64,000 nt of DNA from Synechococcus sp. RS9916. GTDB lineage: Bacteria; Cyanobacteriota; Cyanobacteriia; PCC-6307; Cyanobiaceae. The stretch covers positions 2,258,869 to 2,322,868 of the forward strand of contig NZ_DS022299.1 in assembly GCF_000153825.1 (NCBI RefSeq), in the 5' to 3' direction. This document shows, one piece after another, positions 15,783 to 42,831 of this stretch. The position numbers and the translations under genes were made by a program. The notes under the pieces are model-generated. The model worked only from the letters and a program-made list of their open reading frames with translations. It ran no database searches and had not been told where the DNA came from. The number at the start of each line of letters is the position of its first letter. Position 1 is the first letter of the stretch.

Positions 15783-15911
15783 CAATTTTAATCTATAACT
15801 ATAATAATGCAATCATCCCTTTTAAACGAAGAATCTGCAGCATCCGCTTCTTTATCAGATATATTTACTAACCAGATTTTTTAAAAATCAACCTTCAAGA
15901 CACTCTAAATT

Positions 15912-16979: not shown

Positions 16980-16985
16980 ATTCAT

Positions 16986-17963: not shown

Positions 17964-17970
17964 ACTTTTA

Positions 17971-19441: not shown

Positions 19442-19443
19442 AT

Positions 19444-22263: not shown

Positions 22264-22274
22264 TTGTTTCTTGT

Positions 22275-22284
22275 AAAAAAAAAA
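22275..22284 (+). repeat. Homopolymer A10 just upstream of the formyltransferase start
   Basis: Ten consecutive A residues end two bases before ATG 22287. A tract this long is prone to slipped-strand mispairing. Length change here would alter the spacing of the translation start, not the frame. Confidence 0.9.
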
Positions 22285-22286
22285 CT

Positions 22287-23180
22287 ATGACACCATTCAA
22301 AATTGGTTATTTTGCAGATGGCCCTTGGTCACATGGCTCACTCGATTTAATTACTAGTGATCCATCCTTAGCTGTTGAGTTTATATGTGCACGATATGAT
22401 GCGCCAGACCCAGTTTTAAGAGAGAAAGCCAATTTCCTCAACATTCCTTTTTTAACGCACGAAAACGTTAACTCTCCTGCATTTACTTCATTATTGAGTG
22501 ATATTAATTGTGATATTTTTGTTTCAATGTCTTTCAACCAGATTTTACGGCCGAAGACATACTCTTTGCCTCGTTTTGGAACCATAAACTGTCATGCCGG
22601 CATGCTTCCTTATTACAGAGGCAGAAATATACTTAACTGGGCATTAATTAATGATGAAAAATCATTTGGCATAACTGTACATTATGTCGATTCAGGGGTT
22701 GACACTGGTGATATTATTTCACAAAAGTCATTCCCAATATGTGACAATGACGACTATTCTTCTCTTTTAAAAGTAGCCTATAAGGAATGCCCTCCTCTCC
22801 TCTATGGTGCTATCTTAGATATTTGCAATTGCCGTGCAGATAGAATTCCCCAGAAAACAATACACCCTCATGGGTCCTATTTTAGCCAGCGTGTTGTTGG
22901 TGACGAAATAATCGATTGGAATCAACCTTCTAGATCAATTTTCAATTTTGTTAGAGCTCTTTCAACTCCTGGTCCAAACGCCCAGACATTTGTTGGTAGT
23001 AATTGCATCAAAATAGCCAAAGTAGAGCTTATCGATACCGCTCCTATTTATAAATGTATTCCAGGAGCTATTCTCGCAAAAGATGATAATACCTTCATAG
23101 TAAAAACCTCAGATTCTTACTTAAGGCTGCTACAATGGCAGTGTGACTTTAAACTTGCCGCCGGCATGAGGTTTTCCTGA
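22287..23180 (+). CDS. Sugar N-formyltransferase (N10-formyl-THF dependent)
   Basis: A 297-residue protein of the methionyl-tRNA formyltransferase-like family. The catalytic triad Asn-His-Asp is complete: Asn-101 and His-103 in INCHAGMLPYYRGRN and Asp-139 in HYVDSGVDTGDII, aligning with the ArnA/VioF-type triad. The N-terminal part is a degenerate Rossmann fold (IGYFADGPWSHGSLDLI). The C-terminal part has an Fmt_C-like segment (DWNQPSRSIFNFVRALSTPGP), where the S/T-x-x-I-x-x-x-v-R-a-l-x-x-P-G-P pattern is typical of sugar formyltransferases. It should formylate a sugar 4- or 3-amino group. Sitting between legC and legI, it plausibly formylates the legionaminate precursor. The 1-bp overlap with legI (TGATG) suggests coupled translation. 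Confidence 0.88.
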   Translation: MTPFKIGYFADGPWSHGSLDLITSDPSLAVEFICARYDAPDPVLREKANFLNIPFLTHENVNSPAFTSLLSDINCDIFVSMSFNQILRPKTYSLPRFGTINCHAGMLPYYRGRNILNWALINDEKSFGITVHYVDSGVDTGDIISQKSFPICDNDDYSSLLKVAYKECPPLLYGAILDICNCRADRIPQKTIHPHGSYFSQRVVGDEIIDWNQPSRSIFNFVRALSTPGPNAQTFVGSNCIKIAKVELIDTAPIYKCIPGAILAKDDNTFIVKTSDSYLRLLQWQCDFKLAAGMRFS

Positions 23181-24181
23181 TGGTTCTAATTATTGCTGAA
23201 GCAGGTGTTAATCATAATGGCAGCGTAAAAATGGCCAAGGAGTTGATTGATGCAGCATCTTCTGCTGGCGCAGATGTTGTAAAGTTCCAAACATTTAAAG
23301 CTTCTTCATTGGTTACTAATTATGCATCTAAAGCCACTTATCAACAAACTAATACTGACCCGCTTGAGTCTCAACTTAATATGTTGAAAAGTCTTGAGCT
23401 AAGTGAAGATGACCACTATAGTCTTATAGATTATTGCCAGAGCAAGGGCATAGTATTTCTGTCAACTGCTTTTGACTTATTAAGCATTGATTTTCTTAGG
23501 AAAACACATCCAGTTTTTTGGAAGATTCCTTCTGGTGAAATCACGAATCTACCGTATTTAAGATCTATTGGCTCGTTTAATATGCCTGTTCTTCTCTCTA
23601 CCGGTATGTGTACCCTTGGAGACATAGAGACTGCTATAAATATCCTCGAAAATGCCGGAACTTCTCGTTCTAACATAACTGTCTTACATTGTACGACGGA
23701 ATACCCAGCACCATTTGATGAAGTTAACTTAAATTCGATACCAGCTATTGCTAAAGCTTTTGGTACATCCGTTGGTTATTCAGACCACACCACTGGTATA
23801 TCCGTACCAATAGCTGCAGTCGCGCTTGGTGCTACCGTCATAGAAAAACATCTTACTTTAAATCGTAGCCTACCTGGGCCCGACCATAAAGCCAGCTTAG
23901 AGCCATCAGAATTCGCGGCTATGGTTGATGGAATTCGCTCGGTAGTCTCTAGCCTAGGCGACGGTATTAAGAGACCCACTTCCAGCGAGACTAAGAACCT
24001 TATCATTGCTCGTAAATCTATTGTCGCTGCCACTCCTATAAAAGTTGGCGATCGTTTTACTTCTTCCAACCTTACAACCAAACGTCCTGGGTCTGGCATC
24101 TCCCCAATTTATTGGGATTCTTTACTTGGCAAGTCTTCTACTAGAGACTATATGCCTGATGATTTAATCTATTGGCTCTGA
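23180..24181 (+). CDS. legI: Legionaminic/N-acetylneuraminic acid synthase (NeuB family)
   Basis: A 333-residue PEP-dependent nonulosonate synthase. The barrel begins IIAEAGVNHNGSVKMAKELID, continues with GADVVKFQTFKASSL and the active-site region KIPSGEITNLPYLRSIG. Then come VLLSTGMCTLGDIE, HCTTEYPAP and VGYSDHTTGISVPIAAVALGA, which carries metal-binding His residues, and VIEKHLTLNRSLPGPDHKASL. The C-terminal antifreeze-like SAF domain follows (residues about 280-333: RKSIVAATPIKVGDRFTSSNL, RPGSGISP), as in NeuB/LegI/PseI. It condenses PEP with the 2,4-diamino-6-deoxy mannose analogue. Context with legB/legC/legG makes LegI more likely than NeuB or PseI. Confidence 0.93.
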   Translation: MVLIIAEAGVNHNGSVKMAKELIDAASSAGADVVKFQTFKASSLVTNYASKATYQQTNTDPLESQLNMLKSLELSEDDHYSLIDYCQSKGIVFLSTAFDLLSIDFLRKTHPVFWKIPSGEITNLPYLRSIGSFNMPVLLSTGMCTLGDIETAINILENAGTSRSNITVLHCTTEYPAPFDEVNLNSIPAIAKAFGTSVGYSDHTTGISVPIAAVALGATVIEKHLTLNRSLPGPDHKASLEPSEFAAMVDGIRSVVSSLGDGIKRPTSSETKNLIIARKSIVAATPIKVGDRFTSSNLTTKRPGSGISPIYWDSLLGKSSTRDYMPDDLIYWL

Positions 24182-24183
24182 TT

Positions 24184-25338
24184 ATGCGGAAAATCTGTGT
24201 AGTTACAGGTACACGGGCTGACTACGGCTTGCTTAGATGGGTTATTGACGGAATCAGTAAGTCCTCCATGCTTCAACTGCAGATTGTTGCGACTGGAATG
24301 CATCTATCTCATGAATTTGGTCTTACTTTTAAGGAGATTGAGAATGATGGTTATAATATTGATCTTAAAGTTGAAATGCTTTTGAGCTCTGATTCAAGTG
24401 TCGGGATTACCAAATCAATTGGATTAGGAATTATTGGTTTTGCAGATGCTTTTAAAGAATTGAATCCTGATATTGTCTTGTTGCTTGGCGATCGTTTTGA
24501 AATTTTTGCTGCAGCAACGGCAGCACTTATTTCTAAAATTCCAGTTGCTCATTGTCATGGTGGCGAGACAACTGAGGGTGCTTTTGATGAGTCAATACGA
24601 CACAGTATCACTAAAATGTCTCACCTACATTTTGTCGCGGCTAGAGAATATCAGGAAAGAGTTCTGCAACTTGGTGAAGATCCTGAGAATGTCCACTTAG
24701 TTGGTGGATTGGGAATTGATAATATCAAAAAGCTATCGCTTTTGGACAAGTCCTCATTAGAGTCAGAACTTGAATTTAAATTTCAAGATACTAATTACCT
24801 TGTTACCTTCCATCCAGTAACGCTTGATACTTACTCTGGAACTGAGCAGATTACTGAGTTACTTAGAGCCCTTTCTAATTTAGTAAATACTGGAATTATT
24901 TTTACAATGCCGAATTCGGATACGGGCAGCCGTCCCTTGATGAACCTTATAAATAACTTCTGTAGCGACCATGAATATGCATCATCATATACTTCTCTTG
25001 GTCAAATAAAATATTTATCTACGCTAAAGTATGTTGATGCCGTTATTGGAAATTCTTCTAGTGGCTTGCTAGAAGCACCGACATTTAAAACTGCTACTAT
25101 TAATATTGGTGATCGACAAAAGGGCAGGCTTATGGCTAGTAGCGTCATTAACTGTGATCCCAACTGTATTTCAATCCAAAACGCTATTAATCATTTAAAT
25201 TCTCATGCTTTCAAGCAATCCCTTAATACTACCGTTAATCCCAATGGATCTGGTGGAAGTGCAGACAAAATAATCAAAGTCTTAGAAAGCTATAAGTATC
25301 CTACAAAACTACAGAAAAAATTTCATAGTTATCCATAA
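24184..25338 (+). CDS. legG: Hydrolysing 2-epimerase LegG/NeuC
   Basis: A 384-residue GT-B-fold hydrolysing epimerase from ATG 24184, 2 bases after the legI stop; TTG 24172 would overlap it. Diagnostic segments: VVTGTRADYGLLRW at the start, ATGMHLSHEFGLTFKEIE, LLGDRFEIFAAATAAL, and AHCHGGETTEGAFDESIRHSITKMSHLHF, which is near-identical in pattern to NeuC/LegG. HPVTL is followed by VIGNSSSGLLEAP with UDP/GDP-binding residues. It releases nucleotide and inverts C2 to give the free 6-deoxy-mannose analogue that LegI uses. It closes the biosynthetic operon; 73 bp of T-rich DNA follows with a weak inverted repeat but no clear terminator. Confidence 0.93.
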   Translation: MRKICVVTGTRADYGLLRWVIDGISKSSMLQLQIVATGMHLSHEFGLTFKEIENDGYNIDLKVEMLLSSDSSVGITKSIGLGIIGFADAFKELNPDIVLLLGDRFEIFAAATAALISKIPVAHCHGGETTEGAFDESIRHSITKMSHLHFVAAREYQERVLQLGEDPENVHLVGGLGIDNIKKLSLLDKSSLESELEFKFQDTNYLVTFHPVTLDTYSGTEQITELLRALSNLVNTGIIFTMPNSDTGSRPLMNLINNFCSDHEYASSYTSLGQIKYLSTLKYVDAVIGNSSSGLLEAPTFKTATINIGDRQKGRLMASSVINCDPNCISIQNAINHLNSHAFKQSLNTTVNPNGSGGSADKIIKVLESYKYPTKLQKKFHSYP

Positions 25339-25411
25339 AAACTCTCATTTTTATTGTGATTCCAATCTAGTACTTCTTTCTTTTCTTTTATACTAGTCAC
25401 TTTTACTGAAA

Positions 25412-27187
25412 ATGCCCGTTTCATTTATCATCTTAAAAACTTTATGGTTGCATATCCCTTATCGTATCCAAAAGCTTTTATTATTTCAACTATTTTTAAC
25501 TATTCTAGTAGGCATTTCGGAATTTTTACTTTTAGGCTCAATTTATCCTTTTTTACAGGTTCTTACTTCGACAAGCAATGAGAAATCACCCCTTATAATT
25601 AGTATATTATCTCAATTAAGTGTTAGCCTGACCGATAATAATATATTATTATTTTCTTGTATAATTTTTATCTTTTCTATTGTATTTACCACTTCTGCAA
25701 AATTGTACAATTTGCACTTTGGTGCTTTTGTAGCTTCTCAAGTTGATTCCTGGCTGTCCAAACGTTTATTCGATGGATTCCTTACAATGACATATTTAGA
25801 ATCCACATTAACTAGTAGTAGTAATATTACAACCACAATTGTCCAACATGTAGCGAGTGTAACTTCGGTTGTTCGTGCCTACATTCTCATTATTACATCT
25901 TTTACCTCTGCTATTGGCATTCTGGCTGCATTATTTTTTACCGAACCTTTTCTATCCTCTTCTGTTCTTATTATTCTTATCATTTGTTATATCCTCATTG
26001 GTTCAAGAGTTAAAGAAATTTTATTGAGCAATGGTTCTATTGCTTCTCAATTAACTACTGACATCTATAAGCATATTCAGGAATCATATGGCGCGCTATC
26101 TGATATTATTATCAATAGCTCTCAAGTTATGTATTCTAAGAAGTTTGATGTTTTAAATCAGCATAAAAAAAATCTTCAAGCTCAAAAATTATTTCTTACT
26201 TCTTTTCCCAGGTTTCTACTGGAAGGGATATCTCTCACGGTTCTCATAATTGTCGCTTTTACCTCATACCTTCTTGTTTCCACTAATGTTCTATCAAAGA
26301 TTGCTGTATTAGCCCTCGGTCTTCAGAGAATGTTACCTTCACTTCAGCAAATTTACGGTAATTGGTCAAATATTAAGGCTTCTTCAACACCAGCTTTTAA
26401 TGTTTTAACGCGACTTTCTGACGCTGAACCCAAATTTTTAGTGCAATCACAGATTAAAGCACTACCCTTTAATAAAAGTATTACATTGAGCAATGTCTCT
26501 TTTGCTTATCCCAATTCACAAAAGACAACCATATCTAATATTAGTTTATTTATTCAGAAAGGCGAAATCGTTGGTTTCGTAGGAAAATCAGGTCAAGGCA
26601 AAAGTACTCTAATCAACATCTTGATGGGTTTGCTGATACCTACCTCTGGTTCCATTTACATTGACTCTGAACTTATTTCTATTCCTAACGATCCCAATTT
26701 CAATGTCTCCTCTCGATGGATGAAAAATATTTCTCACGTATCCCAAAATATTTTCATTTTTGATAGCACTTTATCTTCTAATATTTCATTAGAAGAAGAC
26801 TCAAGTATATGTTTGCAGAATTTGCGTGAATGTGCCACAGCAGCATGCATAGATGACTTTATTATGTCCCTACCTGACCAATACTCCTCAATGGTTGGTC
26901 AATCTGGTGCGAAGCTCAGCGGGGGACAAAAGCAGCGTATTGGTATTGCCCGTGCCCTGTATCAAAATCCATCGGTGCTTGTCCTCGATGAGGCAACCAG
27001 CGCTTTAGACCCAGACACAGAATCGAGAATTATCCGCAACATCATTAATTTTAATAAAAAAATGACAATTATTATGGTGTCTCATCGTTATGGTACATTA
27101 TCCAATTGCGATAAAATCTTTTCTGTCGATTCAACAGGTGTTAAAGAAATTTCCTATTCTTCATTAACATCTCCTCAGCTTTCCTAA
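25412..27187 (+). CDS. PglK-like ABC transporter (membrane-fused ATPase), lipid-linked glycan flippase
   Basis: A 591-residue half-transporter. About six membrane helices lie in residues 1-310 (LLLFQLFLTILVGISEFLLLG resembles the start of C. jejuni PglK). The ATPase domain follows: Walker A GKSGQGKST at about residue 390, the Q-loop near SHVSQNIF, the signature LSGGQKQR at about 503, Walker B VLVLDEATSALD at about 522 and the switch His in MVSHRYG. It would flip an undecaprenyl-diphosphate-linked glycan to the periplasm. No Wzx-type flippase gene is visible in the window, so this may be the repeat-unit translocator. From this gene to 43.6 kb the plus strand is notably pyrimidine-rich; the protein is rich in Ser, Ile, Leu and Phe. 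Confidence 0.85.
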   Translation: MPVSFIILKTLWLHIPYRIQKLLLFQLFLTILVGISEFLLLGSIYPFLQVLTSTSNEKSPLIISILSQLSVSLTDNNILLFSCIIFIFSIVFTTSAKLYNLHFGAFVASQVDSWLSKRLFDGFLTMTYLESTLTSSSNITTTIVQHVASVTSVVRAYILIITSFTSAIGILAALFFTEPFLSSSVLIILIICYILIGSRVKEILLSNGSIASQLTTDIYKHIQESYGALSDIIINSSQVMYSKKFDVLNQHKKNLQAQKLFLTSFPRFLLEGISLTVLIIVAFTSYLLVSTNVLSKIAVLALGLQRMLPSLQQIYGNWSNIKASSTPAFNVLTRLSDAEPKFLVQSQIKALPFNKSITLSNVSFAYPNSQKTTISNISLFIQKGEIVGFVGKSGQGKSTLINILMGLLIPTSGSIYIDSELISIPNDPNFNVSSRWMKNISHVSQNIFIFDSTLSSNISLEEDSSICLQNLRECATAACIDDFIMSLPDQYSSMVGQSGAKLSGGQKQRIGIARALYQNPSVLVLDEATSALDPDTESRIIRNIINFNKKMTIIMVSHRYGTLSNCDKIFSVDSTGVKEISYSSLTSPQLS

Positions 27188-27209
27188 GTTTCATTCCCTA
27201 CAATCTCAA

Positions 27210-27998
27210 ATGTTTAATCATAAGTTTGTTAAGAAGCTTCCCAAAAATCCTTTTGGGACAAAGCCTATGGCTACTGCTGATGAGTATCTACTTCTTTACA
27301 ATGAGCTTATTTCGAAAAATGAAAGCCCACAGCTTCTTGAATTTGAAAAAAAATATCAGTATAATATTCCATTGGATTGGTTTTACCCCTTAGTTCTACA
27401 AACCAACGTCGTTATAAAGAAATCAGCCCTTAATTGTTCTCATGGTAGATATTTATACACTTTACTTTCTCATTATATTTCATGTTACTCCTCTCAGGAT
27501 ATAACAATTCTTGAAACTGGTACAGCTAGAGGTTTTTCATCGGTATGCATGGCTAAAGCGCTTAAAGATCAAAATACTAATGGGCGAATTCTCTCAATTG
27601 ATTGTATAGCACATAATTCACCCATTTACTGGAATTGTATCGCTGATAAATATGGCCCTATGTCTAGGTATCAGCTCTTAGCTCAATGGAGAGATTTGTG
27701 TAATTCAATTATCTATCTTACTGGATGGACAAACGATGTTCTTAATTCTTTATCACTTAACAGAATTAATTTTGCATTCCTAGATGCTCAGCATGACTTT
27801 GACAGCATTCTTGTTGAGTTTGACTTTGTAAGCAAGCGCCAAATATCAGGTGATATTGTGTTTTTTGATGATGTTACTGAATCTGCATTCCCTGGTGTAT
27901 GTGATGCAGTTAGATATATTAATTCACTTGGTAGCTATACAGTGACTTATCTTGACTCTGATCCATCCCGAGGTTATGCTATTGCTATTAAAAATTAA
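27210..27998 (+). CDS. Class I SAM-dependent methyltransferase (Methyltransf_24-like)
   Basis: A 262-residue protein with a Rossmann-fold SAM domain from about residue 90: ITILETGTARGFSSVCMAK replaces the usual GxGxG with GTARG as in Methyltransf_24 proteins. It is followed by the acidic ribose-binding position in GRILSIDCI, and INFAFLDAQHDFDSILVEFDF with the D-x-x-H characteristic of this group, then SGDIVFFDDVTESAFPGV. The N-terminal 80 residues are helical and unassigned. It probably methylates a sugar or a glycan end, which can stop chain growth. It starts 23 bases after the transporter stop and sits in the glycosyltransferase run. The acceptor is unknown. Confidence 0.72.
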   Translation: MFNHKFVKKLPKNPFGTKPMATADEYLLLYNELISKNESPQLLEFEKKYQYNIPLDWFYPLVLQTNVVIKKSALNCSHGRYLYTLLSHYISCYSSQDITILETGTARGFSSVCMAKALKDQNTNGRILSIDCIAHNSPIYWNCIADKYGPMSRYQLLAQWRDLCNSIIYLTGWTNDVLNSLSLNRINFAFLDAQHDFDSILVEFDFVSKRQISGDIVFFDDVTESAFPGVCDAVRYINSLGSYTVTYLDSDPSRGYAIAIKN

Positions 27999-28000
27999 AG

Positions 28001-29266
28001 ATGCATATTAGTCCTTCGAAACATATTAAATATATAATACTTCCTTTCCCTTCAATAGGTTCCCTTGAGAACTTGCTTTCCTTCAGGGACATTTATATAA
28101 AAAAACCTGTTGCTCTTTTATTTCTTAATAATGAACATATTTATCAGTATCTAAGCTATTTACTCTTGACTAACTGCTGTTCATTACAGCTTTACTCTGA
28201 TGAATTTCTAGTCATCGCCTCCAATAATCGCTTGATTGACATTAAATTTATAATTACCTTTTTCTTTGGTCTTGTCAATCTATCCTTTCCGCTTAAAAAG
28301 CTGATCCTGATTCTTATACGACCTCTTATTTGCAATCCTCTCCTCTATCATAGTTGGACATTTTTTATCCCTAATGTTAATTTTGATTTTAGCAATTTAC
28401 AAGTTATAGTTTCTGACTTTCTAGCTCTTCACACTAAAAACCTCCTTTCTTATCTTAGGCGGTTTAAGCCTAATCAATATATTTCAATTAGACATGGTGT
28501 AACCATTTCTCCTTTGTGTCCTGTTACTAGTGACCAAAAAAAGTTATATTCTGACTTCAGTTTGCCTTCCGAGCATTTGTATCTGTATACTAACACTCAT
28601 GAATTAGATTATTTTTCAACTGTCCTTCCTTGTAATTCATCAAAGTTTCTTTATATTCCCGTTTTGCGACTTTTAAATAAATCAATTTCATATTCATCTA
28701 TCGATTCATCTACCATATCAATTTTCACTCGACCTATTTCACCACCATATTTGTCTAAAGATGATATTCTTGATTTTATTTACTTAGCAAATCAGATCAC
28801 GGCTTATCGTTCTGACCTTACTTTCGTTGTAAAAAATCATCCAAAAGATAAGCATAAGTACGTTTATAGGCTTTTAAAAAAAGGACTTACCAATTGTTCG
28901 GTTTACGAAGCTCATTATGATGCAATTTCACTGGCGCGCAAATCGAAAATTTCAATAACCTTTTACTCAAATCTGTCTGTAGATTTTTCCTATCTAAAAA
29001 TACCTCATTTTGAATTCTACTGCAAATCTTTAGAAACCATACATGCTGAATCAGGTTTATTTCACGACTGTAATCACTATCCTAGTCTAGACTACCGCTA
29101 TTTTGGCCTCTCTCCTGTATTACACAATTCCGATCAATTACATAATGCTCTTCTCGATAATTGTTGTTATGAGCATCATGTCGACTTTTCCTACAATGCG
29201 CATATTGAACTATTTAATCCTACTTTGCCATTAGATCATATCTACGAAGGCTTGCCAGCATCTTAA
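28001..29266 (+). CDS. Putative GT-B transferase with HP motif, candidate nonulosonate transferase
   Basis: A 421-residue protein I cannot place in a named family. The N-terminal half has the hydrophobic strands YIILPFPSIGSLENLL and PVALLFLNNEHIYQYL. Mid-protein QYISIRHGVTISP could be a nucleotide or acceptor loop. The C-terminal half has SIFTRPISPPYLSKDDILDF, then LTFVVKNHPKDKHKYVYRLLKK and SKISITFYSNLSVDFSYLKIPHF. The NHPK element followed by S-x-x-S-x-D resembles the HP and S motifs of bacterial sialyl- and polysialyltransferases (GT-B fold). Placed right after the CMP-legionaminate operon, a CMP-sugar transferase role is plausible but unproven. No signal peptide. It begins 2 bases after the methyltransferase stop. 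Confidence 0.6.
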   Translation: MHISPSKHIKYIILPFPSIGSLENLLSFRDIYIKKPVALLFLNNEHIYQYLSYLLLTNCCSLQLYSDEFLVIASNNRLIDIKFIITFFFGLVNLSFPLKKLILILIRPLICNPLLYHSWTFFIPNVNFDFSNLQVIVSDFLALHTKNLLSYLRRFKPNQYISIRHGVTISPLCPVTSDQKKLYSDFSLPSEHLYLYTNTHELDYFSTVLPCNSSKFLYIPVLRLLNKSISYSSIDSSTISIFTRPISPPYLSKDDILDFIYLANQITAYRSDLTFVVKNHPKDKHKYVYRLLKKGLTNCSVYEAHYDAISLARKSKISITFYSNLSVDFSYLKIPHFEFYCKSLETIHAESGLFHDCNHYPSLDYRYFGLSPVLHNSDQLHNALLDNCCYEHHVDFSYNAHIELFNPTLPLDHIYEGLPAS

Positions 29267-29267
29267 A

Positions 29268-30332
29268 ATGACCTCTGTAAAAGTATCTGTAAATCTAAAA
29301 GTTTTTTTTCAATATAAGCTTCTCCTGTTTTTCGCTAAAACAAATGTTTGCCCTCTTTTAACTGAAAAAATATTTCCTCGAAGCGGACCAAGGTATTTTT
29401 TCCTAAATCTTCTTGTTGCAATTACCTCCCATAAGTATTTAAAAGTTTCATATAATACATCAAGATCTAAGTATCATCTACATAATAGTGGTGATGTAAC
29501 TATTAAATATTTTTCCTCTATTCCACCTAGTAAATCGATTCTTCGTCTTGATGGTATCGGTTTTGAGTCATACGAAGGCGAAAAAAGAAAACAATATGTC
29601 CATACTATGAATGAACTTGTAAACAAATCTCATGCATTAATATTCCAATCCAATTTTTCAAAATCCATATTTCAAGATTTCTATTCTGACTTAATTCTTT
29701 CTAAGCCGCATACCGTTATTACTAATGGCTCATCTCAGTTATCTTCTAGTATCAACAAACGTAAACTTCAAAAGAGTTATAATATATATTTGCCAGATAA
29801 ATTTTTCGTCGTTGCCGGTCGTAATGTACCAAGAAAGCGTATAAATTTAATTATAGACCTTTTTAAAAGCTTACCTCAATATAATCTAGTAGTTTTATCT
29901 GATGTCAGTTCAAATTTTTTCGAATATCCTAATATTTATCCACTTGGTATTCTACCTCCCGGAATTGCTAGGTATATCATCTCTATCTCTACTGCACTTA
30001 TCCACGTAGACACCTACGACTGGTGTCCTAATATTGTTGTCAATGCTTTATATGATGGCGCTTCTATTATTTGTTCAAACTATGGAGGTACACCCGAAAT
30101 TGTGCGTAAATCATGTAACAACCACTTCATTATCCAGGAACATCATACGCATTCCGATACCTTCGACTACATGTGTAATTTATCCAGTGCTAAGTTTCCT
30201 CTAGATTTATTTTATGATGCTTTAGATAAAGCTTATAACAAACAAACGATAAATCTTACTTCTCAGTACGAATTCTCAATAGATTATTCTGCTTTCAACT
30301 ATTCAAGTTTTATTCAAGGCCTTTCATGTTAA
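29268..30332 (+). CDS. GT4-type glycosyltransferase
   Basis: A 354-residue GT-B glycosyltransferase. The N-terminal domain includes SILRLDGIGFESYEGEKRKQ and HALIFQSNFSKSIFQDFY, where F-Q-S-x-F-x-K/R is typical of GT4 enzymes. The C-terminal donor domain has FFVVAGRNVPRKRINLIIDLF (the G-R-x-x-x-x-K segment), IYPLGILPPG and TALIHVDTYDWCPNIVVNALYDGASIICSNYGGTPEIV, with the E-x(7)-E nucleotide-sugar motif replaced by a degenerate N-x-x-V-N-A-L-Y-D-G version. It adds a sugar to the lipid-linked oligosaccharide on the cytoplasmic face. The start is 1 base after the preceding stop, and the end overlaps the polymerase gene by 7 bp. Confidence 0.8.
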   Translation: MTSVKVSVNLKVFFQYKLLLFFAKTNVCPLLTEKIFPRSGPRYFFLNLLVAITSHKYLKVSYNTSRSKYHLHNSGDVTIKYFSSIPPSKSILRLDGIGFESYEGEKRKQYVHTMNELVNKSHALIFQSNFSKSIFQDFYSDLILSKPHTVITNGSSQLSSSINKRKLQKSYNIYLPDKFFVVAGRNVPRKRINLIIDLFKSLPQYNLVVLSDVSSNFFEYPNIYPLGILPPGIARYIISISTALIHVDTYDWCPNIVVNALYDGASIICSNYGGTPEIVRKSCNNHFIIQEHHTHSDTFDYMCNLSSAKFPLDLFYDALDKAYNKQTINLTSQYEFSIDYSAFNYSSFIQGLSC

Positions 30333-31426
30333 ATATTTTTGGATTGGCTAATGCTCTTTCGCTTCCTACCATGGAAGCTTATTCTTTAAATCCCCTTTTA
30401 ACTTTAACTCTTGCACTTACTCCGTTAGCTCTTTTTTTCTTTAACTCATTAACCTACCGAGTACGAGTTGCTTTACTTTGCCTTATTCTTCCTTTAGTAC
30501 AATCCCTCCATAGAGCAGGTGGAGATCTTTTTAATTATACTATTGCAATCAATACATCAACAATTTGGAATATTGAACCCTTCTGGTTCATCTTCTTCTT
30601 GCTCCATAAAATTTATCATGTCAACAATGAATTTTTAATTTCTTTCCTTTATTTTATCATTAGTTTATTATTCTTCGGCTCCATACTTTCCTTTTATAAT
30701 GGTCATAACATTAAGGACATATTCTATGGATTGTTACTTGCATCAGTTATGTTTGGCCCCGCTTTGTATCAGGCCCAAATACGGCTTTCTTTGTCTATAG
30801 CATTTACTTACTTATCTATCTTCTTATTTAAAAAGCGCAAATCAGTTATAGCTACTTTGCTTATGCTTTCAAGTGTTATCAGCCATTCAACATCCATCCT
30901 TTTTTCACCATTAATAATATACCTTGCTTTCTCAGATAATGTCGATGATTATCTCACACTACTGATCCAGAAATCACGAGTGAAATTTATATTCTTAATG
31001 GTTTTAATTCTTCTAGTTTCGTGTGTTATTGTTGTTTTAGTTGTTCTTGCACCAAGATATTTTAGTGCCGACTCAAGTCAGTTTCAGCTTGGCCAAGCAA
31101 GTGGGTCTTTTCTCTATGACCTTATTAGCTCATTTACTATTTTTATCTTGTACAAGTTTTCTTTAAATTCAAATTTCGTCTTTCAATTTGCTTCTTCTTC
31201 GAAATATATTCGTAGCCAATTTTTTAATTCAATTATTTCGTCTTCAATTCTTCTTGGATTTATTGGATGGCTCGGTCGATTTAAATTTTGGTTTTATCCC
31301 TATATCTCATTGACTATATCTTCAAATTACAAGCCATTTATATTTTTCATTCTTGCTTTATTCACTCTTAGGAATCTTCGATTATATTTTCTTGTAGACC
31401 CATCTTATATGGTCTTTCTCTTTTGA
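30326..31426 (+). CDS. wzy: Wzy/EpsG-like O-antigen or exopolysaccharide polymerase
   Basis: A 366-residue, strongly hydrophobic inner-membrane protein with about ten predicted helices, for example LTLTLALTPLALFFF, FLISFLYFIISLLFFGSIL, FIFLMVLILLVSCVIVVLVV and PFIFFILALFTLRN. The pattern of a short loop with HRAGGDLFNYT, helix pairs, then ALYQAQIRLSLSIAFTYLSIFLFKKRKS is that of EpsG-family polymerases. There D-x-x-x-Y near the first loop and a Q-x-R-x-x-L-A motif mid-protein are common. It would join flipped repeat units in the periplasm. Wzy proteins vary too much in sequence for certainty. It overlaps the preceding glycosyltransferase by 7 bp; a 99-bp T-rich gap follows with nothing convincing in it. 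Confidence 0.72.
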   Translation: MLNIFGLANALSLPTMEAYSLNPLLTLTLALTPLALFFFNSLTYRVRVALLCLILPLVQSLHRAGGDLFNYTIAINTSTIWNIEPFWFIFFLLHKIYHVNNEFLISFLYFIISLLFFGSILSFYNGHNIKDIFYGLLLASVMFGPALYQAQIRLSLSIAFTYLSIFLFKKRKSVIATLLMLSSVISHSTSILFSPLIIYLAFSDNVDDYLTLLIQKSRVKFIFLMVLILLVSCVIVVLVVLAPRYFSADSSQFQLGQASGSFLYDLISSFTIFILYKFSLNSNFVFQFASSSKYIRSQFFNSIISSSILLGFIGWLGRFKFWFYPYISLTISSNYKPFIFFILALFTLRNLRLYFLVDPSYMVFLF

Positions 31427-31525
31427 GCTTCCTCATTTTTAATACCTTTGTATTTATTTGCTTTTAATGCTCAGCACCTACCCACATGTGTCTGGTAGAA
31501 TTACTCTTGCTTTTCTTTTCCGTCA

Positions 31526-32845
31526 GTGTTCGTTGTCATAACTTATGAAATTCTTAACAGAGAGGCTCCTTTCATCTCAGCACTCACCTCTCAATTCAAG
31601 CGTGATGGTATATCTGCTATTGTTTTGCATCAACAGCACTTAGTCCCTATCCTTCGCTTCCTTCCAAAGTGTTTTATAATTTTTAAAAGCGCCGATCATG
31701 GGAGACTTCCATGGTATAAACTCGCTAAGAAATATTTGCATACTGTCAGTTGCTTTGATTCTGAAGGCCTTTTCGTACATCCTAAAGACTTCACTAAAGT
31801 GCGCATTTCCTCAGATGTATATGAACTCTTAGACATTTATTTCATATGTGGAGTTTATCAAAAAGGTTTATTAACTAATGCCCCTTCTTTTGATGCTTCT
31901 AAGTCACTAGTCGTTGGTTCTCCATCAATTGATTTTCTTAAATCCTTAAATATTTTCGAACGCGGTGTTCCAAAGTTTGACATTGGTATCCTGACTGGCT
32001 TTGGCGGTTACAATCATCGTGGTGGCCACGACTATCGCCTTTTAGTTCAATCAATTAAAAATACTCCTTTTACTAAACAAGAATTGTCAGATATTAATGA
32101 GTACATTGATACAGCTAGACGTGCCCTTTTTGAATATGTTGATTTGGTTTCCAATATTTGTAAAAAATATTCTCAGCTGAAAATCCTTATCCGAGTTCAC
32201 CCGTCCGAATGCCCGAAGCGTTGGAAATGCTTAGAAGAACAATTCCCCCAACAAATATCTGTAGATTCTACTGGAACAATATTTGAGTTTTTAAACAAAA
32301 CTAATCTTATCGTTTCATTCAAAAGTACTGTTTCGCTTGAAGCTCTCGCACTCAAGAAACCTATTATTTCCTATGCTCCTTCCTCTATCGATCCAAACAA
32401 TATCTTTTACCCAAATAATGAGCCATCCAACTTATCTTTGCTTGTTACTGAACGTTCTGATCTCTTTAGTTATATTGATGCTATTGTTAGTAACGAGTAT
32501 AAAACCATCTCTTTGCCAACACCGCCTAGCGCTTTGCAAACAGCAGATAGCATATGTGAAGGTTTCTCTAGCTGTACTTATTCTTCTGTTACCTATCTTG
32601 TGAGTTACATTACAGAGCATTTTCAGCCTTCACGCTTGTCTATTATTAACCGTATTCTTCTTTGCTATATATCTGTTCTTTGCTTTTTTTCGCATGTATT
32701 TTTGATTGTTCGTCGTCCTAAATCCTATCTTCTTTATGGTAGGTCAAAAATTGGCAGTAGGCTTAAACTTGCTGGGCTATCACCTGATAAGTCTAATCCC
32801 TTTTCTCTTATTCTTGCCTTTGTCACTAGAACCATTATTACTTGA
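31526..32845 (+). CDS. Surface carbohydrate biosynthesis protein (GT-B-like, HP motif)
   Basis: A 439-residue protein starting at GTG 31526; an in-frame TAG at 31496-31498 excludes anything much longer. The order of segments fits the surface carbohydrate biosynthesis protein family found in nonulosonate and Kdo loci: an N-terminal EILNREAPFISALTSQF, then PKCFIIFKSADHG, HTVSCFDSEGLFVHP (the D-x-E-G-L element), YFICGVYQKGLL, SLVVGSPSID, and a C-terminal ILIRVHPSECPKRW with the HP motif. IVSFKSTVSLEALALKKPII, an S-x-x-S-x-E-A nucleotide-binding loop, follows. The last 70 residues contain the hydrophobic stretch ILLCYISVLCFFSHVFLIV, a possible membrane anchor. It may transfer a CMP-activated ulosonate; activity unproven. 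Confidence 0.68.
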   Translation: MFVVITYEILNREAPFISALTSQFKRDGISAIVLHQQHLVPILRFLPKCFIIFKSADHGRLPWYKLAKKYLHTVSCFDSEGLFVHPKDFTKVRISSDVYELLDIYFICGVYQKGLLTNAPSFDASKSLVVGSPSIDFLKSLNIFERGVPKFDIGILTGFGGYNHRGGHDYRLLVQSIKNTPFTKQELSDINEYIDTARRALFEYVDLVSNICKKYSQLKILIRVHPSECPKRWKCLEEQFPQQISVDSTGTIFEFLNKTNLIVSFKSTVSLEALALKKPIISYAPSSIDPNNIFYPNNEPSNLSLLVTERSDLFSYIDAIVSNEYKTISLPTPPSALQTADSICEGFSSCTYSSVTYLVSYITEHFQPSRLSIINRILLCYISVLCFFSHVFLIVRRPKSYLLYGRSKIGSRLKLAGLSPDKSNPFSLILAFVTRTIIT

Positions 32846-39107: not shown

Positions 39108-39689
39108 ATGATCGCAGGTTTCGATAATTTCTCGGAAAAGTTTGCTTCTGTTCTTTCTTCTGACTCTTGGAAGAAGGCTGAGTCTGATTTTTTGTCCTCC
39201 TCTCGTATTCTTGCCGTTGGCAACGGTGGCAATCTTGCTGTTTGTGATCACGGTGCTATTGATATTGCTCGTCTCACAAACAAGTCTGCATCTGCACCAG
39301 GAAGTGGTATCCTTGCGAGTTCTTTGATTAATGACGTCTCTCATGATGAATGGGTGAAAAATTGGCTTTCCATCTCCTTGAGAGGTCTTCCAGCCTCTTC
39401 TGTGAGCGAGACGATGTTGATCGGTGTGAGTAGCTCTGGTTATTCGAAAAATATCTGTATGGCTCTTGATCACGCTCTTCAACTAGGTTGCAAGGCATGT
39501 TTAATTTCAGCTCAGCAGCCAAAAATTGATGGCACTTATAACACAGTTATTCTCGATGTTGATGAGTATCATACTAGTGAAGTTTTGACTCTTTCTTTGT
39601 TTTACCAGTTGATTGACTCTGCTGGTTTCTCTTGCCCAACGATTAGTTCTTCTGTCGCCCGTACCCAAATTGATGATTATTCCAATTAA
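39108..39689 (+). CDS. SIS-domain phosphosugar isomerase, GmhA/KdsD-like
   Basis: A 193-residue single-SIS-domain protein of the size and layout of sedoheptulose-7-phosphate isomerase GmhA. Phosphosugar-binding loops are ILAVGNGGNLAVCDHGAIDIA (residues about 28-48; GmhA has G-N-G-G-S, here N replaces S) and MLIGVSSSGYSKNICMALDHA with the S-S-S-G-x-S motif. There is no CBS pair, so it is not a classical KdsD. The four genes on its right side (phosphatase, aldolase, CMP-transferase) suggest it makes the aldose phosphate for an ulosonic acid; C5 versus C7 substrate cannot be told. A 9-codon upstream frame ends in the ATGA of its start codon. Stop and next start overlap by 1 bp (TAATG). Confidence 0.82.
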   Translation: MIAGFDNFSEKFASVLSSDSWKKAESDFLSSSRILAVGNGGNLAVCDHGAIDIARLTNKSASAPGSGILASSLINDVSHDEWVKNWLSISLRGLPASSVSETMLIGVSSSGYSKNICMALDHALQLGCKACLISAQQPKIDGTYNTVILDVDEYHTSEVLTLSLFYQLIDSAGFSCPTISSSVARTQIDDYSN

Positions 39690-40318
39690 TGCAATTTGAT
39701 TTACGTGCCTCAATAGATAATTACGATACTTTTGTCTTTGACTTTGATGGTGTCATAAAGGATTCTGTTCCTGCAAAGTCAAAGGCTTTTTCTCTCCTTT
39801 TTTCATCATATCCTTCTGTTCTTCCTAGAATAGTTGCTCACCACCTTGCTAATGGTGGTATTTCTAGAGATTATAAATTACCACTTTATATGTCTTGGTG
39901 TGGCATTGATCCCTCTGACATCAATGTTTCGACCTATACTTCCAGCTTTTCATCGATTGTTTCATCACTAGTTATTAATTCTCCCTTTGTTTTAGGTATT
40001 TATAATTATCTTGAATTCTTATCTTCTAATTCGAAACGCTTGTACATCCTTTCTGCTACTCCACAGCAAGAGATCATAGATATTTCTTTGGCTCTTCAGC
40101 TAACACAATATTTTTCTACTAAAAATATCTACGGGCATCCCGCCACTAAGTCCTCCATTCTTCAAAGACTGTCACTTACTTCGCCAGTCTTATTTTTTGG
40201 TGATTCCTTGAGTGATTTCCAATCCTCAATTGATTCTAATGTTGATTTTGTTTTTTGTTCTACAAATCCATCGGTTACTATTCCTAATAATACACCTACT
40301 ATTTCTTCCTTTTTATGA
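39689..40318 (+). CDS. HAD-superfamily sugar phosphatase
   Basis: A 209-residue HAD hydrolase. Motif I is FVFDFDGVIKDS (nucleophile Asp and second Asp, with the G-V-x-x-D-S typical of beta-phosphoglucomutase-like phosphatases). Motif II is the Ser/Thr in LYILSATPQQE, motif III the Lys in HPATKSSIL, and motif IV FFGDSLSDFQSS with two Asp. A helical cap lies between motifs I and II. In this setting it would dephosphorylate the isomerase product, or the ulosonate phosphate as KdsC does; it is a capped type unlike KdsC, so acting on the aldose phosphate is the more natural reading. ATGA overlap with the aldolase gene. Confidence 0.85.
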   Translation: MQFDLRASIDNYDTFVFDFDGVIKDSVPAKSKAFSLLFSSYPSVLPRIVAHHLANGGISRDYKLPLYMSWCGIDPSDINVSTYTSSFSSIVSSLVINSPFVLGIYNYLEFLSSNSKRLYILSATPQQEIIDISLALQLTQYFSTKNIYGHPATKSSILQRLSLTSPVLFFGDSLSDFQSSIDSNVDFVFCSTNPSVTIPNNTPTISSFL

Positions 40319-41061
40319 AATCCCCTTCTCTCCTTCGTCATAAATTTCAGCTTGGTCAGCATTCTGTTGGCACTTGGATGCAAATTTCTTCTCCCGAAAT
40401 TGCTGAGATTTTTGCTGCTAATAATCTTTTTGACTGGGTTGTTGTTGATGATGAGCATGGATGTTTCAATTCTTCTGTTTTGCCATCTATTTGTCGTTCT
40501 ATTGAATTGCATGGAAAGTTACCTTTTATTCGCCTGAAAGATCGAACCTACAAATCAGCGCGGGATGTTGCGGAATTCGGTTTTTCTGGTTTTATAGTGC
40601 CTATGGTTGAATCCGCTAAAGATCTACTCAATGTATTTAATGCGATAAATTACCCCCCTTTGGGTACGCGTGGTGTTGGTTTTTGTCGCTCTAATCAATA
40701 TGGTATTAACTTCAATAGTTCCTTTAAGCAAGATTCTCCCTTCCTCGTTTCAATAATAGAAAGTGCTCTTGCTGTTCAAAACCTCGATTCAATTCTTCAA
40801 TTTAAACACTTAGATGCGATTATGGTTGGTCCATATGACTTATCCACTTCATTGTCTATACCCGGCGAGTTCGATAACCCTTTATTTACTTCAACTCTTG
40901 CCACCATCAGAGAAAAGTGCCGTTTTTATAATGTTCCATTTGGTCAGCATATAGTCTCTAATGACAAAAATCTACTCGATGAGGCAATAATTAATGGCTC
41001 TAAATTTATAGTATATTCTATGGATTCTGTAATGCTTTCTAACCCTTTTCAGATTCCATAA
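40315..41061 (+). CDS. HpcH/HpaI-family class II pyruvate aldolase
   Basis: A 248-residue metal-dependent aldolase of full family length. Active-site elements are in order: GTWMQISSPEIAEI, WVVVDDEHGCFNSS with the catalytic His (His-45 in HpaI), PFIRLKDRTYKSARDVAEFGFSGFIVPMVESA with the pyruvate-binding Arg region, TRGVGFCRSNQYG, SIIESALAVQNLDSI with the metal-ligand Glu, and GPYDLSTSLSIPG with the metal-ligand Asp. These enzymes cleave or form 3-deoxy-2-keto acids from pyruvate and an aldehyde. In biosynthetic direction it would condense pyruvate with the free aldose from the neighbouring isomerase and phosphatase. The 3' end overlaps the convergent kdsB-like gene by 23 bp. Confidence 0.9.
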   Translation: MKSPSLLRHKFQLGQHSVGTWMQISSPEIAEIFAANNLFDWVVVDDEHGCFNSSVLPSICRSIELHGKLPFIRLKDRTYKSARDVAEFGFSGFIVPMVESAKDLLNVFNAINYPPLGTRGVGFCRSNQYGINFNSSFKQDSPFLVSIIESALAVQNLDSILQFKHLDAIMVGPYDLSTSLSIPGEFDNPLFTSTLATIREKCRFYNVPFGQHIVSNDKNLLDEAIINGSKFIVYSMDSVMLSNPFQIP

Positions 41062-41785
41062 TCTTTTCTACTTTTAGGATATCTTCTGGTACGTCAACAG
41101 GGTGTGAGTGGGTTTCTACATCGACCATTTTGACCTTATATCCATATTCTATAAATCGCAGCATATCTATTGATTCAACCTTTTCAAGAGGCGTTGGCGC
41201 TAGTTTGCTATATTTTTTTAAGCTTTCTGGTGTAAATGGTATTATACATATCTGTTTACCGACATTTGTTAAATCATCACCATTATATGGTATACCTACT
41301 CTTGACATGTAAATTGCTTCTTTTTTGGTATTTGTTAGTACTTTAATGCAATTTGGATTTTTGAAATCTTCAGCATTCATTGCTGCTATTCCATTTGCGC
41401 AGCAATACTTCTCACGTTCTTCCTCAAATCTAAGGGTTATTTTCTTTATCGTTTCAGAATCTACTAGTGGTTCATCACCTTGCACTAAAGTTATTATGTC
41501 ATAGCTTTCGCCTTCCTGTTCAAGTTTTTCGATTACCTCAGTGCATCTGTCCGAGGCGCGTTCATGTTTTTTTGATGTGATTATTGAATCGAAATTTTCT
41601 TTACTGCAATAAGTTAGTATTTCCTTGTCAGGAGTTGCAATTACTATTTTATCAAATATTTTAGCATTTGCACAGTTATTATAAACATAATATAGCATTT
41701 CTTTTCCTTTTATCTGTGCCAATGGCTTGCCTGGAAATCGGCTGCTTCCCATTCTTGCTGGAATTATGCAAATCTTGCGTGTCAT
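41039..41785 (-). CDS. kdsB: 3-deoxy-manno-octulosonate cytidylyltransferase-like (KdsB family)
   Basis: A 248-residue CMP-sugar synthase. CTP-binding PARMGSSRFPGKPLAQI lies at residues 8-24. IVIATPDKEIL, the signature ITSKKHERASDRCTEVI (T-x-x-x-H-x-x-G/A-x-D-R of KdsB), LVQGDEPLVD with the metal-site Asp, and ESIDMLRFIEYGYKV, VETHSHPVDVPEDI at the end are all KdsB-like. It would activate Kdo or a related ulosonic acid with CMP. No kdsA (PEP-dependent synthase) or kdsC is visible; the adjacent isomerase, phosphatase and aldolase could make its substrate. It lies on the opposite strand, tail to tail (23-bp overlap), and shares a 4-bp overlap with the methyltransferase gene that precedes it. 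Confidence 0.9.
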   Translation of the reverse strand: MTRKICIIPARMGSSRFPGKPLAQIKGKEMLYYVYNNCANAKIFDKIVIATPDKEILTYCSKENFDSIITSKKHERASDRCTEVIEKLEQEGESYDIITLVQGDEPLVDSETIKKITLRFEEEREKYCCANGIAAMNAEDFKNPNCIKVLTNTKKEAIYMSRVGIPYNGDDLTNVGKQICIIPFTPESLKKYSKLAPTPLEKVESIDMLRFIEYGYKVKMVDVETHSHPVDVPEDILKVEKIMESEKG

Positions 41786-42831
41786 TTTTCGCAGAATATG
41801 TGCATGTGTGAACTTACTTTACTACTAACAATCAACCTCTGAAGAGCTTCTTTTGACTCTTTGTCGCTTCTTGTAATGATTTTTCTCAAGGTCTCGTTGC
41901 AAATTTTGTCTGCTTGTTTTTCCATTATATTTACATCAAGCTTGCCCGGCGTAATTGTTTCTATATTTCTAAATCCTATCTCCCTAAGAATTTTCTCGGC
42001 TCCGTTTGGGCTTAAGAAATTTATATGATGAGGTGGTGTTATTGCTTTTGAATTCTCTTTTAACTCGTTGATGTCAATTCCTTCCCCCGATAAGGTTGTA
42101 AGGTATAGCATATCTCCTTTGTTCATAAGATTATTTATTGACTCTAGAAAGGCTTTCGGTGATGTCAAGTGCTCCAATAGCTCAAACGATGTAAACAATT
42201 TTTGTCCCTGTGGTAAGTCTTGCTTGTCCATTTCATTTGTAAATTTATTGATAACGCTTATTTCTTTTCTTCTGCATTCAGCCGCAAGTTTAGGATTCGG
42301 CTCTACGACTAAAGTAAATTCTTTGCCGAAAAATTGACTTGAAGCTAATTTTGCAAACGTGCCAAATCCTCCACCTATGTCGACAAGTATTGTCTTGCTC
42401 CTTTTCTCCCTTAATTTAAAAGTCTCTATTATCCTTTCTAGTTTTGGTTTCCAGAGCAGTTCTTCCCTCTTAGATTCTGTTTTCTTATAAAATACATCTG
42501 CCCAATACTTTGTTGATTCTCCCTCAGTGTAGAATTCCTGGAAACATTTTTCATCCGCATTGAGATTTGCATATATGCTTCCACATGTCGTGCATTTCTT
42601 GTAGTAAAACTGTTCTTTCTTGCAGAAGTGCCTGTTGTTTGACTCGCATCCAGCTGGGCAATTAGCTTCAGTAGTCAAACGTTGCGGGAAAAAATTTTTG
42701 CAATCTTTTTTCGATAACCTAATGTATTCATCGAATATTTCTTGAGGTCTTATTTCCTCCTCTTTTATTTTACGTTTTAGATCGTTGTCCGAGTTTTGCA
42801 CAGTCCTCTCCTTTTCTGTACATCTTATCAT
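41782..42831 (-). CDS. SAM-dependent methyltransferase with Cys-rich N-terminal metal-binding segment
   Basis: A 349-residue class I methyltransferase. The first 60 residues are highly charged (Lys/Glu-rich). Residues about 57-95 then contain CPAGC, HFC and CTTC, a likely zinc-binding arrangement seen in C-methyltransferases and Methyltransf_23-type sugar-locus enzymes. The SAM domain follows: ILVDIGGGFGTFAKLA (motif I), FTLVVEPNPKLAAECRR (acidic ribose ligand), LFTSFELLEHLTSP (motif post-I, as in E-x-L-E-H) and MLYLTTLSGEGIDI. It precedes kdsB with a 4-bp overlap and likely modifies the same glycan or its lipid carrier end. Acceptor unknown. Confidence 0.82.
   Translation of the reverse strand: MIRCTEKERTVQNSDNDLKRKIKEEEIRPQEIFDEYIRLSKKDCKNFFPQRLTTEANCPAGCESNNRHFCKKEQFYYKKCTTCGSIYANLNADEKCFQEFYTEGESTKYWADVFYKKTESKREELLWKPKLERIIETFKLREKRSKTILVDIGGGFGTFAKLASSQFFGKEFTLVVEPNPKLAAECRRKEISVINKFTNEMDKQDLPQGQKLFTSFELLEHLTSPKAFLESINNLMNKGDMLYLTTLSGEGIDINELKENSKAITPPHHINFLSPNGAEKILREIGFRNIETITPGKLDVNIMEKQADKICNETLRKIITRSDKESKEALQRLIVSSKVSSHMHIFCEK

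Follow-up and report, generated by a model that had tools for sequence, protein, structure and literature searches.

A cluster of overlapping genes encoding a sugar-phosphate isomerase, a phosphatase, a pyruvate aldolase and a KdsB-like cytidylyltransferase (here termed KdsB2) is located in a 64,000-nucleotide stretch of the Synechococcus sp. RS9916 genome (G000; 2.66 Mb, single contig), which is referred to as the window. On balance, our analysis favours the view that these genes form a horizontally acquired cassette making a 3-deoxy-2-ulosonic acid, activated with cytidine monophosphate (CMP), for a surface glycan without a synthase dependent on phosphoenolpyruvate (PEP). The observations behind this view are the gene content, the catalytic residues of the aldolase, the HAD phosphatase and KdsB2, the kept gene neighbourhood, and the presence of aldolase-cytidylyltransferase pairs in genomes that have no KdsA.

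All CMP-ulosonic acid pathways known to us (those for 3-deoxy-D-manno-oct-2-ulosonic acid (Kdo), Neu5Ac, Kdn, legionaminic acid and pseudaminic acid) form the C-C bond with PEP. The use of PEP makes this step irreversible, and aldolases acting on ulosonic acid sugars are known as catabolic enzymes. If the proposed function is correct, this conserved aldolase pathway would add a new means of forming surface ulosonates and would account for KdsB-like genes in cyanobacteria without KdsA; as a four-protein system, the cassette is open to in vitro testing. No aldolase-based CMP-ulosonate pathway was found described in the titles and abstract openings of the open-access literature, subscription papers being outside the scope of the search, and the word "aldolase" is absent from the main text of a review of rare glycan biosynthesis (PMC12409901).

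Composition of the cassette and a proposed pathway

A first-pass annotation, made from the DNA alone, had placed four overlapping genes in this order, and both the open reading frames and the family matches agree with it (Table 1). The isomerase and phosphatase genes overlap by 1 bp, the phosphatase and aldolase genes by 4 bp, and the convergent 3' ends of the aldolase and KdsB2 genes by 23 bp. The gene upstream of KdsB2, encoding an S-adenosylmethionine (SAM)-dependent methyltransferase, overlaps it by 4 bp on the same strand; a homologue adjoins KdsB2, with 4-bp overlaps, at two other loci, L073 (44% identity) and L137 (32%), and the methyltransferase gene is proposed to be the fifth gene of the unit. 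A scan of the region for promoters and terminators gave signals no more frequent than in shuffled sequence.

Table 1. Genes of the cassette and the basis of their assignment (positions in the window; aa, amino acids).
Feature	Position	Strand	Basis
SIS sugar-phosphate isomerase, 193 aa, GmhA/DiaA-type fold, own family	39108-39689	+	PF01380; AlphaFold model, best PDB match GmhA
HAD-IA phosphatase, 209 aa	39689-40318	+	PF13419/PF00702; alignments; subfamily mostly with NGG(I/V)SRxxK-like motif
HpcH/HpaI-family pyruvate aldolase, 248 aa, proposed ulosonate-forming step	40315-41061	+	PF03328
KdsB-like CMP-ulosonate cytidylyltransferase (KdsB2), 248 aa, convergent with aldolase	41039-41785	-	PF02348
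SAM methyltransferase, 349 aa, upstream of KdsB2, proposed fifth member	41782-42831	-	PF13489, 49.6 bits

The aldolase matched HpcH_HpaI with 82.9 bits (cut-off 25), and alignment indicated that it keeps D45, E47, H48, R73, E149 and D175, which are invariant in comparison with Escherichia coli YfaU and GarL (25-27% identity); YfaU (2vws, 2.6e-25) was the closest solved protein in a single-sequence search. Its structure model was mediocre (predicted local distance difference test score (pLDDT) 71.8, built on three sequences) and was not used. The phosphatase matched HAD_2 at 29.5 bits (cut-off 23.8) and keeps D18, D20, K154, GDS 171-173 and D176 in alignments; no match to KdsC was obtained for it. 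KdsB2 matched CTP_transf_3 with 147 bits, and its best NCBIfam matches were models of Kdo cytidylyltransferase, namely NF009905 (248.7 bits, just under the cut-off of 255) and NF003952 (243.5 bits, passing the cut-off of 193), with 153 bits against TIGR00466, just under the cut-off of 155.2. A KdsB-family cytidylyltransferase, a member of the classical Kdo pathway, is present in the cassette in this sense. KdsB2 is 52-53% identical to the copies at two Prochlorococcus loci (L073 and L080) and 27% identical to the classical KdsB of the same strain, and it keeps K20, D104 and D231 in the alignment. The section of PMC3149649 on a two-metal KdsB mechanism names D95, D219 and K19, which by motif would be equivalent to D104, D231 and K20.

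The isomerase matched PF01380 with 28 bits (cut-off 25) and is 76-79% identical to Prochlorococcus proteins. When its AlphaFold model (pLDDT 86.4) was compared with solved structures, GmhA and DiaA chains filled the top ranks with Z of about 18 to 19.3 (best GmhA 19.3), above the SIS domain of the arabinose-5-phosphate isomerase KdsD (2xhz, Z 16.6). Searches against NCBIfam at E <= 0.001 returned weak matches to gmhA models alone and no kpsF or kdsD match. The annotation had stated that the active-site residues of all four proteins are present, which holds for the aldolase, the phosphatase and KdsB2 and fails for the isomerase: aligned with E. coli GmhA, to which it is 22% identical, it has Asp52 and Ser163 in the places of Glu65 and His180, the catalytic pair of GmhA. 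His48, Asp52, His155 and Glu158 are invariant in 12 aligned members of the isomerase family. An ordinary GmhA was not accepted as its identity, because this pair is not kept. It is possible that a C7 aldose is formed and hence a C10 ulosonate; we know of no ten-carbon ulosonate from nature.

In the proposed pathway, the SIS isomerase would convert a ketose phosphate to an aldose phosphate, from which the HAD phosphatase (or, in another version of the cassette, an inositol-monophosphatase-family protein) would release the free aldose. The aldolase, a class II enzyme, would condense pyruvate with the free aldose to a 3-deoxy-2-ulosonate three carbons longer, and KdsB2 would convert this with cytidine triphosphate to the CMP-ulosonate, the loss of pyrophosphate drawing forward an aldol step that is close to equilibrium; modification of the sugar by the methyltransferase is possible. 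It is the order and direction of these reactions, the substrate and the product that we infer. Aldolases of the HpcH/HpaI family act on free aldehydes and the set contains no KdsC-type phosphatase, and a phosphatase step before C-C bond formation therefore fits.

Comparison with known systems indicated both likenesses and differences. The classical CMP-Kdo pathway (KdsD, KdsA, KdsC and KdsB) also employs a SIS isomerase, a HAD phosphatase, a three-carbon addition and a KdsB-family cytidylyltransferase, but the cassette has a pyruvate aldolase instead of KdsA, its phosphatase would act before the C-C bond is formed and gives no KdsC match, and its isomerase is short, with a GmhA/DiaA-type fold and no KdsD/KpsF match. 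The NeuB pathways (sialic, legionaminic and pseudaminic acids) share the CMP-activated 3-deoxy-2-ulosonate as product, but NeuB condenses PEP and the cassette is without NeuB. The catabolic aldolases HpaI, GarL and YfaU/RhmA belong to the same family and have the catalytic and metal residues in common with the cassette aldolase, whereas the latter is partnered with a CMP-transferase, an isomerase, a phosphatase and a methyltransferase in a glycan island and falls into its own clade among the cyanobacterial copies compared. GmhA and GmhB of ADP/GDP-heptose synthesis likewise pair a GmhA/DiaA-type SIS fold with a HAD phosphatase, but, apart from the altered catalytic pair, neither a heptose kinase nor a heptose nucleotidyltransferase was recognised in the cassette.

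Ulosonate synthases in this and related genomes

The module had been described as lacking a PEP-dependent synthase, a description that is true of the cluster, where no KdsA is found, and untrue of the genome. The PF00793 profile matched two places in the genome, neither inside the window, and one of the two proteins (P0001) is KdsA, scoring 502.6 bits with the model of 3-deoxy-8-phosphooctulonate synthase (cut-off 457); absence of KdsA from the genome was thereby ruled out. A search for kdsA and kdsC elsewhere had been suggested as a check, and both were found in a classical Kdo set 45-50 kb from the cassette in GC-rich DNA, in which KdsA (itself about 50 kb off), another KdsB, a KdsC-family HAD protein and a KpsF/KdsD-type isomerase (L008:13686-14891) lie within 5.1 kb (G000:C1:2248663-2253760; L008:9794-14891). 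The strain is therefore not dependent on the aldolase for Kdo, and, because of this separate full set, the product of the cassette is probably not Kdo. As to a co-expression of kdsA with the cassette cytidylyltransferase, which the annotation had named as contrary evidence, gene position points elsewhere, as a separate KdsB lies 0.8 kb from KdsA. The sole NeuB match of the genome (C1:2282111-2282839, about 23.2-24.0 kb of the window, in a gene at about 23.2-24.2 kb) is in the same island as the cassette and outside the latter. The full Kdo gene set in this picocyanobacterium contrasts with a statement in the abstract of a review (PMC4515613) that cyanobacterial lipopolysaccharide is without heptose and Kdo.

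That the aldolase can serve as the synthase is best supported by two other genomes, G163 and G223. In G163 (single contig, 100% complete), the sole PF00793 protein is an AroFGH-type 3-deoxy-D-arabino-heptulosonate 7-phosphate (DAHP) synthase (502 bits, cut-off 173) and there is no KdsA; it also encodes one NeuB and, apart from a protein of GlmU size, three PF02348 proteins. G223 (single contig, 99% complete) similarly has a DAHP synthase (509 bits) as its PF00793 protein, no KdsA, and one NeuB, encoded 2.3 kb from a cytidylyltransferase; each of its other two cytidylyltransferases touches an aldolase. NeuB exceeded the cut-off in 11 of the 13 genomes examined. A second PF00793 protein is encoded elsewhere in G473, as it is in G000.

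Modules with other carbon-carbon enzymes were also observed. KdsB-HAD pairs in the picocyanobacteria G435, G165, G465 and G366 (L145-L148) adjoin an HMGL-like protein of 538-558 aa in all four cases (PF00682, 79.5-102.7 bits), and in another cyanobacterium, G155 (L041), HMGL-like, HpcH, NeuA-like and HAD genes stand in a row. The HMGL family includes pyruvate aldolases such as 4-hydroxy-2-oxovalerate aldolase, and the HMGL-like proteins are possibly pyruvate aldolases of the DmpG type, which suggests that the C-C bond-forming enzyme, and with it the class of aldolase, is exchangeable among such modules. A 354-aa pyruvate-kinase barrel protein (PF00224, 182 bits; L067:5408-6472) is found as an odd partner beside an SIS-cytidylyltransferase-HAD set.

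Recurrence of the cassette in genomes and viral contigs

Homologues were sought in a family set of 300 genomes (299 besides this one); unless a family match is given, neighbouring genes were named by eye from recognised sequence features, the longer proteins at several loci by their first part. Strong relatives of the isomerase (52-76% identity) are present in five of the 299 other genomes, and 25 of the 300 match at E <= 1e-3, mostly weakly. A scan of GTDB contigs gave nine isomerase loci, eight in Prochlorococcus and one in a Verrucomicrobia metagenome-assembled genome. The annotation's proposal that the four-gene set be sought in other genomes was borne out in Prochlorococcus AG-347-E23 (L073), where all five genes, including the methyltransferase, are ordered and oriented as they are here and the convergent genes overlap by 22 bp (identities: isomerase 79%, phosphatase 37%, aldolase 55%, KdsB2 52%, methyltransferase 44%); given this common five-gene order, the arrangement is more than chance.

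Other genomes carry variants of the set. Prochlorococcus AG-347-L21 (L080) has the isomerase, an inositol-monophosphatase-family protein (PF00459, 132.6 bits), the aldolase and KdsB2 within 5.4 kb. G163 has a phosphatase-aldolase-KdsB2 operon with the isomerase 34 kb away, and a single contig of P. marinus MIT 9302 (G616) carries a convergent aldolase-KdsB2 pair and, about 35 kb from it, an isomerase-phosphatase pair. An aldolase-KdsB2-methyltransferase set with 4-bp overlaps occurs in G473. The isomerase-phosphatase pair of MIT 9302 (L063:9588-14881) has as neighbours a DAHP-synthase-family protein (TIGR01361, 276 bits), a cytidylyltransferase and, as judged by eye, a gene resembling that of shikimate dehydrogenase, an arrangement that may be a PEP-based form of the module. 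Both at L080:6925-8291 and at a viral isomerase locus, L193:10963-12226, a cytidylyltransferase is directly adjoined by a gene of the fumarylacetoacetate hydrolase family (PF01557, 138-139 bits).

A profile built from four aldolases matched 23 of the 300 genomes at E <= 1e-3, of which 12 genomes (13 loci) matched at E <= 1e-24, the rest being weak partial matches; KdsB-like genes at E <= 1e-30 are present in 70 of the 300. A KdsB-like gene lies within 1.7 kb at eight of the 13 aldolase loci (G000, G163, G616, G473, G447, G624, G475 and the second locus of G223). Such a gene is missing from the loci of G314, G446, G608 and G507 and from the first locus of G223, where the aldolase overlaps a different cytidylyltransferase by 4 bp (PF02348, 29 bits, cut-off 22.6). 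Touching aldolase-KdsB pairs are convergent in G000, L073, G616, G475 and G223 and collinear in G163 and G473, so the adjacency is not that of one frozen operon. The claim that aldolase and KdsB-like cytidylyltransferase are recurrent neighbours is thus supported, with the phosphatase and this isomerase family around several of the pairs. A binomial value for the adjacency (2e-6 at 8.3% chance) assumes a 60-kb island and was calculated on related loci, and it was not relied on. In the aldolase tree, in which row L027 (wrong reading frame, very long branch) is to be ignored, the six aldolases partnered with this type of KdsB2 form one clade with support of 99/99. A KdsB2 search across the phylum matched 191 of 386 genomes at E <= 1e-35, far more weakly beyond G000 and G163 (best 8.6e-59), and was uninformative because ordinary KdsB proteins would give such matches. 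No aldolase match was found in plasmids at 1e-30.

The isomerase profile also matched 41 IMG/VR contigs (L175-L215; near-duplicates included unless merged at 95% identity). According to tblastn at 1e-5, an HpcH aldolase lies within 2 kb in 14 of the 41, a cytidylyltransferase within 2.5 kb in 32, and both in seven; L175 and L181, with neither partner within these limits, have a cytidylyltransferase about 3 kb away. After merging, 34 groups remained, 13 with an aldolase and 27 with a cytidylyltransferase. Most of the viral isomerase genes have a C-terminal extension as in L081, which its motif and the annotations of phage proteins that match it mark as HAD-like, and the isomerase protein of L196 matches 12 isolated-phage records through its C-terminal part only. 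Of ten flanking proteins taken from seven contigs, four gave no family match, whereas the other six, which come from five contigs, belong by their matches to phage lysis, tail, exonuclease or PhoH families. The aldolase profile matched six IMG/VR contigs, in one of which (L174) the aldolase and a KdsB-like gene adjoin and are preceded by a member of the glucosamine-6-phosphate isomerase/6-phosphogluconolactonase family; none of the partner genes sought was found in the stretch examined of the other five, and isolated phages gave no aldolase match at 1e-5. Judged by gene content, the viral contigs, in which the isomerase stands beside NeuA-type cytidylyltransferases, possibly represent phage-borne ulosonate synthesis, and the occurrence of such genes both there and in picocyanobacterial glycan islands hints at a connection with phage-host recognition without demonstrating one.

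Taken more widely, picocyanobacteria and viruses of bacteria might share a modular, PEP-independent CMP-ulosonate synthesis in which pyruvate aldolases (HpcH/HpaI, perhaps also HMGL-type) replace KdsA or NeuB beside a cytidylyltransferase, a SIS isomerase and a phosphatase, and in which a GmhA-type isomerase could give a ten-carbon ulosonate; this generalization is put forward tentatively, as somewhat less probable than not.

Alternative explanations and genomic setting

Several observations weigh against an aldolase-based route. One NeuB is encoded in each of the genomes G000, G163 and G223 and might in principle supply a cytidylyltransferase with its substrate. G447 and G624 have KdsC-KdsA-CBS-aldolase-SDR-SDR-KdsB clusters whose KdsA passes the KDO8P-synthase cut-off; with a genuine KdsA in the cluster, the aldolase cannot simply replace it there, and some HpcH aldolases in such loci therefore do something else. 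The aldolases of these two genomes form a clade separate from that of the six KdsB2-partnered ones. Four of the 12 family genomes with a clear HpcH match have no KdsB-like gene near the aldolase. Seven of the nine genome loci of the isomerase (some cut by contig ends) and 27 of the 41 viral loci (within 2 kb) are without a nearby aldolase, and the isomerase is therefore not strictly tied to it; as aligned, this isomerase also appears to be without the GmhA catalytic pair. At the viral loci L200 and L213, KdsA-like genes lie 2.1 kb from the isomerase. Exchange of the phosphatase at L080 is not proven, because a HAD protein of the same kind (26% identity) is encoded about 5 kb from the isomerase on its other side.

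In one alternative, KdsB2 would be fed by a PEP-dependent synthase encoded elsewhere, either the KdsA 50 kb away or the island NeuB, and the aldolase would serve another purpose, such as the synthesis or trimming of a precursor or the recovery of lost ulosonate. Both synthases are present in the genome, and the G447 and G624 clusters and the viral L200 and L213 combine KdsA-like genes with an aldolase, but KdsA is accompanied by a KdsB of its own, aldolase-cytidylyltransferase pairs occur without KdsA in G163 and G223, and the aldolase and KdsB2-like genes overlap or touch in two orientations at several loci; we consider this explanation unlikely. It is rather improbable that the cassette makes Kdo itself from pyruvate and D-arabinose as a redundant supply, although the best NCBIfam matches of KdsB2 are Kdo models and the order isomerase, phosphatase, three-carbon addition and CMP transfer functionally mirrors KdsD-KdsC-KdsA-KdsB, since this supply would duplicate the classical set, KdsB2 and the classical KdsB share just 27% identity, and the isomerase model is closer to GmhA/DiaA than to 2xhz. 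The solved relatives HpaI, GarL and YfaU are catabolic enzymes, and a catabolic aldolase unrelated to its neighbours might have been placed by chance in an island that is a mosaic of genes in opposed orientations. Such chance placement has very little probability in our judgement, given that the KdsB2-partnered aldolases fall into a single clade and that no HpcH/HpaI gene besides that of the cassette was found in the genome, and a catabolic operon was rejected as the principal explanation because of the recurrent cytidylyltransferase partners.

The cassette is part of an acquired island, as indicated by its AT-rich composition: GC content is 37% at 39108-42831 and 36% at 14427-32845, compared with 63% in the 20 kb preceding the window and 65% in a giant gene that follows. 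Sugar genes in hypervariable Prochlorococcus islands are mentioned in PMC5804319. Throughout the AT-rich island (14427-43634), the plus strand is pyrimidine-rich (purines 36-45%) regardless of gene strand, and proteins encoded on the minus strand consequently look Lys/Glu-rich and those on the plus strand Ser/Leu-rich. The glycan island adjoins a 6773-aa reading frame of SIGGGGG-type repeats (window 43662-63983), whose C-terminal region resembles, by eye, an autotransporter barrel and which is possibly a glycosylated giant surface protein.

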